NCBI RefSeq assembly: GCF_001939115.1
Contig: NZ_MQTZ01000041.1
Location: 374,816-438,815, forward strand
Length of the DNA stretch: 64,000 nucleotides
Direction: 5' to 3'
Origin: Leptolyngbya sp. 'hensonii'
Lineage (GTDB): Bacteria > Cyanobacteriota > Cyanobacteriia > GCF-001939115
Part shown: piece by piece, positions 18,384 through 60,856 of the stretch
How positions within the stretch are numbered: the first letter of the stretch is position 1
How the letters are laid out: every line of letters begins with the position of its first letter
Made by a program: the position numbers and the translations under genes
The notes under the pieces: generated by a model
The model's database searches: none
Told to the model about the DNA's origin: nothing
Seen by the model: only the letters and a program-made list of their open reading frames with translations

Positions 18384-19198
18384 GGAGCCACCTCCTGAAC
18401 GATCGGTTGACCAGTCTGCCCTACTTCGAGGGTCGGCTGCCCAGACTGTTTGACCCGGATAGTATAGGTTCGGTTTCCGGCGGTGGTCTGATAGGTGGTT
18501 ATTTCTCCGATCACGACTGTAGAAACTCGGGCATTATTGACGACCATCCGACCCACTTTTTTGTCGTACAGGTTCATGTAGTGGAGGCCTGCCGTCTGCC
18601 AAATCCGCACACTATAACGGGCTGTCTGAAAAGTAGCCAGGGTTTGGGTCTGATTCGCAGGCAGGCGATTTTCTCTCTGCTGTTCAAAGGCGACGATCGT
18701 GCCGTCGCTGAAGACCCGGCAGAGGCCAGAGAGCCCCCGGCTGCGGGAGCGCAGAATCACTGTGCGGATGGCACTGCGATCGAGCCGCACCTCTACCACA
18801 TCCAAGACTACGGATGGACCAAAGACCCGTTCAGCTTCTTGCTGACAAGCTGCCAGGGCGATCGATGACACCGTGCCCTGGCGAGGTGGAGCGGTCAGGG
18901 AAAACGTGAGCCGATCTTCCCGCACCCAGCCTTCCAGCCCGGAGCTGTTGAAGCGGACATAGTACCAGACGTACCCATCCTTACCCTCGATCTCCCGCAG
19001 GGTTTCCACCCGATCGCCCATCAAGCCGGTGGAAATCACCTCATCCTCGATTGACGGCCCGGATCGCACATTAATCCGGGAACTGGGGTCAGGGGCAAAC
19101 AGCATGGCCGATCGGGCCTGCACTGGTAGACTGCTCCCCAGAGAAACTGTCACCACCAGTACACCCATCCAGAAAGTTTTGCTCATCCTCATAATCAC
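18380..19198 (-). CDS. Secreted SH3-domain protein
   Basis: 272 residues from GTG 19198, which overlaps the stop of the upstream peptidase gene (GTGA). ATGs at 19192 or 19186 are possible alternatives. A signal peptide is evident: a positive start, a hydrophobic stretch WMGVLVVTVSLGSSLP, and a likely cut after VQARS or nearby. Residues about 30-100 form a bacterial SH3 domain (INVRSGPS, then VETLREIEGKDGYVWYYVR), which usually binds peptidoglycan or other wall ligands. The remainder (about 110-272) is an uncharacterised beta-rich region with no catalytic motif I recognise. The coupled start points to coexpression with the zinc metallopeptidase, perhaps as an envelope pair. Confidence 0.75.
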   Translation of the reverse strand: MIMRMSKTFWMGVLVVTVSLGSSLPVQARSAMLFAPDPSSRINVRSGPSIEDEVISTGLMGDRVETLREIEGKDGYVWYYVRFNSSGLEGWVREDRLTFSLTAPPRQGTVSSIALAACQQEAERVFGPSVVLDVVEVRLDRSAIRTVILRSRSRGLSGLCRVFSDGTIVAFEQQRENRLPANQTQTLATFQTARYSVRIWQTAGLHYMNLYDKKVGRMVVNNARVSTVVIGEITTYQTTAGNRTYTIRVKQSGQPTLEVGQTGQPIVQEVAP

Positions 19199-20058
19199 AA
19201 ATTCTTGGCTGCGAAAGTATTACATTGCTTTGGATCACCCGTCTCCAACCCCCGCTTAAACCAGCGCACGCGCTGGGCAGAGCTACCGTGGGTGAAGGAT
19301 TCAGGCACCACGTATCCCTGGGCCTGCCGCTGTAGCCGATCGTCCCCAATGCTGCTGGCAGCCCGCAGGGCTTCCTCAATATCCCCTTTTTGCAGAATCT
19401 GCCGCGATCGGTTGGCATGGTTGCCCCAGACCCCCGCAAAACAATCGGCCTGTAGCTCCAACCGCACCGATAACTGATTGGCCTCCTCTGGATTGGTCCG
19501 CCGTTGCAGCACCGTCACCTGATCCGAGATGCCCAGCAGATTCTGAACGTGGTGGCCAATTTCATGGGCCACCACATAGGCCTGGGCGAAGTCTCCTGGG
19601 GCCTGAAATTTCTCTTGTAAATCGCGATAAAAACTGAGGTCAATGTAGACTTTCTGATCCGCTGGACAATAGAAGGGGCCAACTGTCGATCGGGCAAAGC
19701 CGCAGGCCGATTTGACCGCATCGCTGTAGAGCACCAGTTTGGGTTCGACGTAAGTTTGGCCATTCTGGCGAAAAATATCGCGCCAGGTGTCTTCCGTGTC
19801 GGCCAGAACAACAGAAACAAAGTCAGCCATCTGGTCATTACTGGAGGATCGGGATGCCCCCGATCGGGGCTCTCCCTGGGTGGGAGCAGTCCTGGACGGA
19901 TTTGCCTGGTTCAGAATGATGGTGGGGTCACCCCCCAGCACAGCCACCAGGAGAGCCAACAGCACAGTTCCAATGCCCCCCCCAACCAATGGAGCTGATA
20001 CCCGCATGCCCCGACGATCTTCAACATTCGTACTCCGACGACCTTTTTCCCAATCCAT
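19195..20058 (-). CDS. Neutral zinc metallopeptidase (YpfJ-like), membrane anchored
   Basis: 287 residues from ATG 20058. This start is preferred over the upstream ATG at 20076 because GAGGGAG lies about 8 nt before it and because family members usually begin with a WEKGRRS-NVEDRRG segment. One transmembrane helix (about 20-42, GGGIGTVLLALLVAVLGG) anchors the protein, and the catalytic region faces the periplasm. The zinc motif HEIGHH is in VVAHEIGHHVQN, and the third ligand is probably in the ELQADCFAG segment. The physiological substrate is unknown for the family. It is the first gene of a two-gene unit with the SH3 protein. A MITE-like element lies 62 bp upstream of its start. Confidence 0.85.
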   Translation of the reverse strand: MDWEKGRRSTNVEDRRGMRVSAPLVGGGIGTVLLALLVAVLGGDPTIILNQANPSRTAPTQGEPRSGASRSSSNDQMADFVSVVLADTEDTWRDIFRQNGQTYVEPKLVLYSDAVKSACGFARSTVGPFYCPADQKVYIDLSFYRDLQEKFQAPGDFAQAYVVAHEIGHHVQNLLGISDQVTVLQRRTNPEEANQLSVRLELQADCFAGVWGNHANRSRQILQKGDIEEALRAASSIGDDRLQRQAQGYVVPESFTHGSSAQRVRWFKRGLETGDPKQCNTFAAKNL

Positions 20059-20119
20059 GGTTACCGTCTCCCTCATGCGATGGCTATTCTGCGTTCATTC
20101 CCCGATCGTGCTGTCCTGA

Positions 20120-20217
20120 TAAGTAATCGGGTGAGATTAATTATAAGAAGGGGGGTCTGGGGGCACGCCCCCTTCACCCCGACTCTCATCCTTAATTTAA
20201 TTGTGCCGACCTACTTA
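20120..20217. mobile_element. 98-bp MITE-like element, copy 1
   Basis: A non-coding element matching positions 59744-59841 over all 98 bp with only two differences. The ends are imperfect inverted repeats (TAAGTAATCGGGTGAG and, read inward from the right, TAAGTAGGTCGGCACA). If TA is the target duplication, the mobile unit runs AGTAATCGG to CCGACCTACT, which would fit Tc1/IS630-type transposition. The centre is a G/C hairpin, GGGGGCACGCCCCC. No transposase is present in the window, so any mobility must be supplied in trans. Confidence 0.75.
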
Positions 20218-58215: not shown

Positions 58216-59658
58216 ATGCAACGGATGAACAAATTCAGACAAGTCATCAACCAGTTTGGGCTCAAGCATTGTGACCCGACTTCCCTGCAATTTCGTCTGA
58301 CAGCCGAAATCGCTGTGTTGTCTGTCCTGAGCCTGAGTACGGTGGCGGTTTGGATGGGATGGCAGATGCAGCAGATTCTGATGATTACCCATAAGCAGAA
58401 TATTGAGCAGATTGCCGATCGCTTTCCTCGGGATGTGGAACTCTATGGAGAAATGTTCCCCCTGGAAATCGGGCTGGAGAAGGCGGTCGATAATGTTTCT
58501 ACCTCGGGGGTGCAAGTCTGGGTTAAAAGTCCAGAGGGTAAAGTGTTAGCCCAATCTGCCAGATTACAGATGGCACCAGCAATGGCCAATCAGTTAATGG
58601 CTTTGACGACAATGCCCTTGCAACCCCAAGTTTACCGGATCGGAGAACGCTATATCGTTTTGTGTGAGGCTCCGGTTATCGTTAAGGGAATGTCCCTGGG
58701 CAGAGTCTATCTGGTTCAGGATGTCACCCGGGATCAATTACAACTACACCTGGCTTTGCAACAGTTGACGCTCGTCTGTATCCTGGTGACGACAGGGGGC
58801 ATCGTGATCATTGGGCTGCGGGTCAGGCGATTGTTACAGCCCCTGCAAGATATGAACCGGATGGCTGGAGCTATTTCAGTCGAAGATTTGAAAGAAGCGA
58901 AGTTGCAACTGAACCATGCCCCGCGTGAAGTCAGAGAACTGGCCCAGACCTTCAATATGATGTTGTCTCGCTTGGCAGATGCCTGGGAGCAGCAACGGCA
59001 GTTTGTCAGCAATGTTTCGCATGAACTGCGAACTCCCTTAACCGTGGTATCCGGTTATTTGCAGAGTTTATTGCGTCGGGGCACTAACCTGAACGATTAT
59101 CAGCGGGAGGCTCTGCAAACCGCCGCATCAGAAGCAGATCACACGATCCGGCTGCTGCAAGACCTCCTGGATTTGGCCCGGGCTGACAGCGGGTATATGT
59201 ACTATCGGTTAGAGTCTATTCTGCTGAATGATCTGGTGCTGGAAGTGGCGGATATGGGGGAGCGGTTCAGCGATCGTTCTATTACAACAGTAGCGCCGAT
59301 TGAAGTTCGAGCAACGGTCGATCGCGATCGCCTGAAACAGGTCCTGATTAACTTGATTGATAATGCGGTGAAATATTCAGGGCCTGACCAGCCCATTCTT
59401 CTGAAGCTGGGGCAAGCAGAAGGGCAGGCCACAATTCAGGTCTGTGATCAGGGGGTTGGTATGGCTCTGCCAGACCAGAGTCGGATCTTTGAGCGCTTCT
59501 ACCGGGTCGATGAAGCCCGTTCCCAGCAGATTGGGGGGCATGGTTTGGGGTTAGCGATCGTCAAGACTCTAGTTGAGGGTATGGGAGGTAGTATTACGGT
59601 ACGCTCCAGGCCCAGTGAGGGGAGCACGTTTACGATCGCTTTTCCTTCTGACCCATAG
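58216..59658 (+). CDS. Sensor histidine kinase, ManS-like
   Basis: 480 residues from ATG 58216. Transmembrane helices at about 30-52 and 180-202 flank a periplasmic sensor (about 55-178) with acidic stretches such as RDVELYGEMFP. HAMP (about 203-255) leads to HisKA with H269 in [21 protein letters not shown] and a HATPase domain (DQGVGMA, GGHGLGLAIV). The sensor and the HisKA region resemble the cyanobacterial manganese sensor ManS, and a ManR-like regulator lies convergently downstream. That pairing is inferred. If right, it would control manganese uptake genes, none of which are in the window. Confidence 0.85.
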   Translation: MQRMNKFRQVINQFGLKHCDPTSLQFRLTAEIAVLSVLSLSTVAVWMGWQMQQILMITHKQNIEQIADRFPRDVELYGEMFPLEIGLEKAVDNVSTSGVQVWVKSPEGKVLAQSARLQMAPAMANQLMALTTMPLQPQVYRIGERYIVLCEAPVIVKGMSLGRVYLVQDVTRDQLQLHLALQQLTLVCILVTTGGIVIIGLRVRRLLQPLQDMNRMAGAISVEDLKEAKLQLNHAPREVRELAQTFNMMLSRLADAWEQQRQFVSNVSHELRTPLTVVSGYLQSLLRRGTNLNDYQREALQTAASEADHTIRLLQDLLDLARADSGYMYYRLESILLNDLVLEVADMGERFSDRSITTVAPIEVRATVDRDRLKQVLINLIDNAVKYSGPDQPILLKLGQAEGQATIQVCDQGVGMALPDQSRIFERFYRVDEARSQQIGGHGLGLAIVKTLVEGMGGSITVRSRPSEGSTFTIAFPSDP

Positions 59659-59743: not shown

Positions 59744-59841
59744 TAAGTAATCGGGTGAGATTAATTATAAGAAGGGGGGTCTGGGGGCGTGCCCCCTTCA
59801 CCCCGACTCTCATCCTTAATTTAATTGTGCCGACCTACTTA
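59744..59841. mobile_element. 98-bp MITE-like element, copy 2
   Basis: Matches 20120-20217 at 96 of 98 positions in the same orientation. The only differences are the two central bases of the hairpin (GGGGGC-GT-GCCCCC here, AC in copy 1), which is exactly what inverting the hairpin would give. TA lies at both ends as a possible target duplication. Confidence 0.75.
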
Positions 59842-59849
59842 GGAATGAG

Positions 59850-59971
59850 AATTAAATAACACCGATAAACTTCTGCTTGCCCTCACCCCCCTGCCCCCTC
59901 TCCCGCCGGGAGAGGGGGAGGGGTTGGGGGTTGGGGGTGAGGGCTGAAAATCTCGGAGTTATTAAATCCAC
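59850..59971. repeat. Palindromic element with a perfect 12-bp stem
   Basis: Arms GCCCTCACCCCC (59879-59890) and GGGGGTGAGGGC (59933-59944) are perfect complements. Inside is a second stem around CTCTCCCG/CGGGAGAG. Outer A/T-rich flanks (ATTAAATAACACCGA and TCGGAGTTATTAAAT) are also imperfectly inverted, so it may be a small folded element like its neighbour. Confidence 0.6.
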
Positions 59972-60064
59972 GATCCTTAGCTCAAAGAGAGAGGGATTTA
60001 GGGTGAGGGCTGCTATGGCTACAACCGTAGTAAATGACCCACCCATGTTCTCCAACTGGTTTTT

Positions 60065-60742
60065 CTAAGGCTCCCGCAGAGCGTAGCCCACCCCTCGGAT
60101 AGTATGGATCAACCGTTTTTCGTTCTGCTCCTCTAATTTCAGGCGCAGGTAACGGATATAGACCTCAATAATATTAGAGTCTCCCATAAAGTCATATCCC
60201 CAGACCTTTTCCAGGATTTGATCTCGGGTAAAGACCTGTCGGGGATGGCTCAACAGATATTCCAGTAAGTCAAATTCTTTGGCAGTAAGTTCGATCGATC
60301 GCTTGCCCCGAAACACTTCACGAGTCCGCCGATTCAGACTCAGATCCTCAAATTTCAGGATGTCGGTGTCGCTCTCCTGAGTGCGGCGAAGATGGGCGCG
60401 AATTCGGGCCAGTAGTTCTTCAATGCTGAAGGGCTTAACGACATAATCATCGGCTCCAGCATCTAGCCCTGTGACCCGATCGCCCACCTCATCTCTGGCT
60501 GTAAGCAGAATCACAGGTACCTTGCTGCCGGTTGTGCGGAGGCGGCGACAAAGTTCCACCCCGGTCAATCCTGGTAGCATCCAGTCCAGAATGACCAGAT
60601 CAGGGGTGGATTCTCGTGCCAAGGTCAGGCCAGTCATCCCATCGTTAGCCACACTGACACGATAACCTTCACTGCTTAATTCCAGCTCGACAAATCGAGC
60701 CAGTTTCGCTTCGTCTTCTACCAGAAGGATATGGGTTGCCAT
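60065..60742 (-). CDS. OmpR-family response regulator, ManR-like
   Basis: 225 residues from ATG 60742 ([17 protein letters not shown]), with AGGA 8 nt upstream; the frame extends ten codons further without support. The receiver (about 4-118) has the D53 acceptor in VILDWMLPG and K in VVKPFS. A winged-helix DNA-binding domain (about 128-223; [48 protein letters not shown]) follows. The N-terminus and the [19 protein letters not shown] stretch closely resemble cyanobacterial ManR-type regulators, as I remember them. It is likely phosphorylated by the convergent ManS-like kinase. A search is needed to separate ManR from close paralogues. Confidence 0.87.
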
Positions 60743-60856
60743 GGATCGTATCCTATGCCTACATGCTCTCAACTCTAATGGAGATGCTTTCTAAAAGAAT
60801 GAGTTTCTCCTGAGTGGAGCAAGAGCCCTTCCTTAAAACTATCCCTCAGGAGAGTT

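Follow-up and report, generated by a model that had tools for sequence, protein, structure and literature searches.

The DNA analysed here, a 64,000-nucleotide stretch of Leptolyngbya sp. 'hensonii' (the window), is part of contig C41 in a genome of 5.94 Mb and 77 contigs, and contains two copies of a short repeat of 98 bp (Table 1). Copy 1 lies between divergent open reading frames (ORFs), 43 bases from the first codon of the minus-strand ORF at 19195-20076 and 113 bases from another ORF called from 20331 on the plus strand. Copy 2 is in the interval between two converging ORFs, 58216-59658 (+) and 60065-60772 (-), whose 3' ends face it. The surroundings of the two window copies gave no hint of a function for the element. 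Rfam returned two matches, both under their gathering scores and neither overlapping the element, and the fold shows a hairpin whose energy is not unusual (z about -0.7 to -1.2). With no Rfam family on the element and an ordinary fold energy, a reading as functional RNA was rejected.

Table 1. Coordinates of the two repeat copies and their parts, as positions in the window
Feature	Position	Strand	Basis
98-bp MITE copy 1, centre AC	20120..20217	+	sequence comparison
Left terminal inverted repeat TAAGTAATCGGGTGAGATTAATTA	20120..20143	+	14/24 positions shared with the inward-read right end
Right terminal inverted repeat TAAGTAGGTCGGCACAATTAAATT	20194..20217	-	first 12 bases equal the left end of IS630-type L064:1647-2772
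Inverting hairpin GGGGGC-AC-GCCCCC, 6-bp arms, 2-nt loop	20159..20172	.	fold and flip comparison
98-bp MITE copy 2, centre GT	59744..59841	+	sequence comparison
Inverting hairpin GGGGGC-GT-GCCCCC	59783..59796	.	flip comparison

Direct comparison bore out how the first-pass annotation had described the pair: the copies agree at 96 of 98 positions, and the only mismatches, at element positions 46-47 (window 20165-20166 and 59789-59790), are the central AC and GT. Its claim that one copy equals the other with the hairpin flipped proved exact, since inversion of the 14-bp hairpin of copy 1 yields copy 2 letter for letter, and the TA that it saw at both ends is present within TAAGTA and TACTTA. The perfect hairpin arms of the 98-bp form measure only 6 bp. 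The terminal sequences of the two copies are identical, and the flip sits in the centre of the element. The chance that two random substitutions hit both bases and give the exact reverse complement is about 2.3e-5, a figure that assumes equal likelihood of all substitutions, while the change from AC to GT in fact consists of two transitions. The right-end 21-mer occurs twice in the window and in none of 100 shuffles, and the sequence of copy 2 is identical to that of a further copy, L004, at G000:C48:88338-88435.

The repeat family and its element type

BLAST with the element gave 30 matches in its own genome, corresponding to 21 complete copies of 89-141 bp and three partial or degenerate ones (L016, L029 and L030). 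The complete copies comprise 13 recovered in one piece, six split in two by a longer centre and the two of group C. They run from TAAGTA to TACTTA, the outermost six bases being TAAGTA at both ends, and occur in both orientations, even within one contig (C58); this multi-copy family with its shared ends supports the MITE-like nature first proposed. The family copies sort into three groups. Group A (n = 11; L001-L008, L011, L012 and L015) includes both window copies, group B (n = 8; L009, L010, L014, L019-L022 and L024) is set apart by several linked substitutions, and group C (n = 2; L026 and L027) has 80-81% identity to the window copy over the matched part. Copy sizes are 89, 97-99, 118-119 and 141 bp. 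A scan of genome contigs with a 30-base left-end pattern, which may omit the window's own genome, gave no match.

The family is likely, if not proven, to be a non-autonomous MITE of the IS630/Tc1 type, judging from its sequence. At 89-141 bp the element has no room for a transposase, there are many copies in the genome, and the terminal inverted repeats are imperfect. TA stands at both ends of the 21 complete copies, which were selected by their ends, and the outer flanks differ; no clean empty site for the MITE was found. This placement of TA agrees with the target duplication, also TA, that is described for Tc1/mariner/IS630 elements (PMC2170065).

DDE_3 (IS630-type) matches were found at 29 places in the same genome, 28 of them over the family cut-off. 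The locus L064:1647-2772 is bounded by TAAGTA and carries HTH and DDE_3 in two overlapping frames with some undetermined bases, and both Pfam families (HTH_23 and DDE_3) score over cut-off. Against the NCBIfam IS630 model its halves score 49 and 81 bits, each under the whole-protein cut-off of 100. The ends of L064:1647-2772 and of the MITE share 15-18 of 24 positions, including 12 of 12 terminal bases when the L064 left end is paired with the MITE right end. An IS630/Tc1-type element with the same ends, as suggested in the first-pass annotation, was thus found in part: the TAAGTA ends are there, but the ends are similar rather than the same (15-18 of 24) and the NCBIfam scores stay under cut-off. 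We infer that the MITE would be mobilised in trans by an IS630-type transposase.

Several further repeat features were also observed. The 141-bp copies (L015, L019, L020, L021, L022 and L024) have a long loop (TTTTGCTGGCGCAACGCTTCGCGAAC) in hairpin 1, common to groups A and B. In L016 (G000:C45:29623 onwards) the MITE is present as its left half, which continues into another repeat with TAAGTA ends (TAAGTAGTTGGGTGAAATTAAAG ...); the arrangement is nested or chimeric, and this second repeat is also present at C41:213529. A second small repeat (GGAATGAGAATTAAATAACACCG ... CACGATCC) was found at window positions 59842-59990 and in L005, L010, L030, L037 and L047; it adjoins the MITE in L005 and L010, is apparently bordered by TTA/TTA or TAA/TAA where both sides are visible, and has the appearance of a further MITE, one with a duplication of 3 bp (TWA). 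At its hairpin centre L005 has CCCGCCGGG, and L010, L030 and L037 have CCCGGCGGG; either the flip of a one-base loop or a simple transversion could account for this. In addition, five other genomes of the class (L074, L077, L079, L080 and L081) have the end motif TAAGTAGGNNGGCANAATTAA in sequences that are otherwise unalike, suggesting a widespread end type.

Hairpin centres across copies and in a related family

Variation between AC and GT was traced within the window's own genome, the only one that searches at the level of genus, family and order covered. Seven of the 11 group A copies have AC (L001, L002, L003, L007, L008, L012 and L015), three have GT (L004, L005 and L011), and one (L006) reads GGGGG-TACG-CCCCC; the intermediates AT and GC were seen in none of the 11. 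The 98-bp and 89-bp size classes each contain AC and GT copies, and AC is the centre of all three group A copies that possess both hairpins (L008, L012 and L015). The expectation that AC and GT variants segregate while the rest of the element is constant held in its first half (7 against 3 in group A); the rest is not constant, and the non-loop part varies among the genomic copies by length changes and substitutions. Group B centres are AT in seven of eight copies and GT in one (L021).

A further pair is in group C, where L026 and L027 differ only by AAA versus TTT over 99 bp, the 96 other bases being identical. Inversion of the hairpin of L026, which has 6-bp arms, gives L027 exactly. The difference amounts to three adjacent transversions, for which the chance is about 2.4e-7, and the pair can hardly have arisen by independent substitutions.

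In a search of 388 genomes of the class, with the best two candidates scored per genome, matches with E of at most 0.001 came from 14, one of them the window's own; a named relative holding a related element is a leptolyngbyacean. A large family of related 118-bp elements, built with two hairpins (hp1 and hp2), occurs in another cyanobacterium, G121. For G121 the best 40 of 255 candidates were scored, two pattern searches were added, and the family alignment was built with BLAST and MAFFT. G121 and JAIMBL rows, which probably come from the same assembly, were merged only if the sequence and the 8-base flanks agreed, and five of the 115 merged rows, shorter than 55 nt, were left out; copies cut by contig ends are possibly counted twice. 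The orientation of hp2 was set by its non-palindromic flanks. In an exact-pattern survey of G121 alone, which required perfect 5-bp arms and exact flanks, five of 49 hp2 copies were inverted (four TGAAA and one TGAA with an extended C-run). In the alignment, 10 of 110 rows were dropped for a gap at hp2; the 100 complete rows comprised 73 with TTTCA, six inverted (five TGAAA and the TGAA form) and 21 others, mostly with one change or a longer G-run.

Partial flips were absent from these loops: for TTTCA/TGAAA and for AAA/TTT, no copy showed one or two of the changes on an otherwise unchanged loop. None of the 97 rows scored as not inverted by loop columns alone has A at hp2 loop position 3 or 4. 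Three of these 97 have G at position 2 (GGTCA in two, GGGCA in one), a change that also belongs to the three making up the flip; these loops look like G-run extensions. Outside the loops, G121 rows depart from the consensus at 481 of 10257 positions. The scattered substitutions that the first-pass annotation had set against its reading are thus present, but not without an excess at the loop, where exact flips occur as well.

Five of the six inverted hp2 rows (L156, L231, L209, L234 and L148) are closer to a non-inverted row than to any other inverted row. For L209 and L234 the margins are small, the overlaps in these comparisons are short, and L209 and L231 have one change in common. The closest row to L229 is inverted (L148), with a common hp1 change. 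Several independent hp2 flips in G121 are likely from these comparisons, their number being uncertain.

At hp1, 16 of 110 alignment rows were dropped for a gap. In an exact-pattern survey of this hairpin, 52 copies comprised 42 with GTT, one with AAC, the inversion of GTT, and nine others (TTC 3, ATT 2, and ACC, AAA, GTA and GT one each). AAC was found in L070, a copy of a shorter, single-hairpin form. Loops that are not inversions and lie two to three bases off GTT (TTC 3, ACC 1, AAA 1) are as common as AAC or commoner, and four of these five loci (L238, L240, L252 and L257) are absent from the family alignment and may be other repeats. The hp1 loops of G121 lend little support to loop inversion. 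In a further G121 repeat type (L181 compared with L137, L152 and L252), five oriented hairpins read TGGAA in three cases, TTCCA in one and GGGAA in one.

How the loop may have been inverted

Exact loop inversion between natural copies was found for three loop types, AC/GT in 10 of 11 group A copies, the AAA/TTT pair and the TTTCA/TGAAA flips in G121, in support of the hairpin inversion first proposed. Based on these comparisons, an in-place loop inversion in an IS630-type MITE is likely, and template switching is the probable route. The AC/GT difference would then be one event. By way of the short inverted arms, the nascent strand would jump to the opposite template, DNA polymerase would copy the loop as its reverse complement, and the strand would jump back. 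The G-runs would double as direct repeats, at which slippage could remove whole arms, shortening the element from 118 to 98 and 89 bp. A template-switching origin fits the full flips, the mostly intact arms, the lack of partial flips and the slippage deletions at the same runs.

The length classes are simply related. Removing one 20-bp stretch flanked by GGGGGC repeats from the 118-bp L008 gives the 98-bp copy. The 89-bp L007 is in turn the 98-bp copy without 9 bp between G-runs, or L008 without 29 bp; deletions between the same G-runs would explain the 118-, 98- and 89-bp forms. L006 corresponds to L008 minus 21 bp plus two substitutions; through one of these, A to C, a perfect 13-bp arm is completed. 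This hairpin (GGGGGGAAGGGGG-TACG-CCCCCTTCCCCCC) could represent an arm-homogenisation event, which, resting on one substitution, is only suggestive; arm homogenisation is reported to accompany template switching (PMC8604942). Against template switching, spacer inversion in that yeast study was limited to arms of more than 9 bp, and the arms here range from 6 bp (98-bp form and group C) to 9 bp (118-bp form and L007). Perfect arms of 9 bp exist in L008 and L007, and the flip may have happened in such a longer-armed form; the 89-bp GT copy (L011) today lacks any perfect arm of at least 6 bp. Since the copies with both hairpins carry AC, the presence of GT in the 98-bp and 89-bp classes would call for conversion, for two flips, or for a single flip in a long form that is missing from the copies found.

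The same product could arise from the same arms if an extruded cruciform or hairpin were cut at both stems, or opened by an SbcCD-type nuclease, and rejoined in the inverted direction. G+C-rich arms favour hairpins, as the fold shows, but 6 bp is a very small arm length for a cruciform to extrude from duplex DNA. We consider this route unlikely, and the sequence cannot tell it apart from template switching.

Two ordinary transitions in an exposed loop, from AC through AT (or GC) to GT, would make the reverse complement a coincidence. AC/GT taken alone could be explained in this manner, because the palindromic AT that is common in group B (7/8, with GT in 1/8) is one transition from both states, and the hp1 loops of G121 vary at several bases without inversion. 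The claim of the first-pass annotation that AC/GT is not the expected pattern of random mutation is weakened for this one pair. AT and GC are absent from the 11 group A copies, and AAA/TTT and TTTCA/TGAAA, which speak for their own loops, require three adjacent changes each with no partial loops seen; we consider the coincidence improbable.

Gene conversion or recombination among copies, including copies in opposite orientation, might spread or create a flipped centre. Both orientations do occur, even on contig C58, and GT is found in both the 98-bp and 89-bp forms. Creation of the flip would need pairing through the 6-9 bp arms alone with unchanged flanks on both sides, so that conversion would account for the spread of an existing flip and not easily for its origin; as the source of the flips it has a low probability.

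An assembly or sequencing artefact at palindromes is very improbable. The genomes are drafts, G+C-rich hairpins are difficult to sequence and several G121 copies lie at contig edges: L229 begins at a contig end and L156 is apparently near one. The arms of 6-9 bp are below the usual assembly k-mers, so the flanks should fix the orientation; furthermore, the AC, GT, AAA and TTT copies of the window's own genome are contig-internal with differing flanks, as are in position four of the six inverted G121 rows (L148, L209, L231 and L234).

To our knowledge, IS200/IS605-type single-strand elements have no TA-flanked terminal inverted repeats, unlike this element. The hairpin-based transposition proposed in the first-pass annotation, by which the flip would be the trace of a transposase-made hairpin, suits a transposon-like element but was rejected as scarcely credible, because cleavage at Tc1/mariner ends involves no hairpin intermediate (PMC2170065) and the flip is central, with identical ends.

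Returning to template switching, flipping could be frequent and tied to movement of the element or to a hairpin-stalled fork, with flips and G-run deletions accumulating mainly at transposition or repair. We regard this extension as doubtful; if true, every MITE family would be a built-in recorder of bacterial template switching.

Comparison with known systems

Kelchner and Wendel are said to have described minute inversions at chloroplast hairpins in 1996. For the chloroplast trnH-psbA spacer, PMC2903610 reports hairpin loops that flip within species. As in our copies, the loop flips between two states with inverted repeats on both sides; unlike them, that spacer is plastid DNA with arms of at least 18 bp and loops of 25-27 bp. 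Loop inversions in rRNA hairpins, rare according to the authors and including bacterial examples, are described in PMC8794818. They share with the MITE an inversion of the loop only, in a set that includes bacterial sequences, and differ in affecting a conserved functional RNA, in contrast to an intergenic repeat that is presumed neutral. In Saccharomyces, inversion of the spacer of inverted repeats by template switching was found only with arms of more than 9 bp (PMC8604942). The likeness is close, in that a short loop between short perfect arms is turned into its reverse complement recurrently while arms and flanks stay unchanged. The yeast cases concern coding genes; the present ones are paralogous copies, within one genome, of a mobile bacterial repeat whose arms measure 6-9 bp.

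The element itself resembles ISY100 of the IS630/Tc1-mariner group in its TA at both ends and imperfect terminal repeats of about 24 bp (PMC2170065), and, going by the title of its description, Nezha in being a MITE in cyanobacteria. Among the matches listed in a search of the open-access literature, no title concerned loop inversion in bacterial MITEs, which is not proof that it is unpublished. The finding most likely adds a clean case to a known mutational process, in a MITE family whose kind is also known, and the many-copy bacterial setting is its useful novelty. In dating or classifying MITE copies, differences clustered in a loop should count as a single event and not as several substitutions. 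The published examples compared here come from plastids, yeast and rRNA genes; multi-copy MITEs offer dozens of paralogous copies of one short hairpin per genome, and with them a natural and probably neutral system in which to assay bacterial loop inversion.
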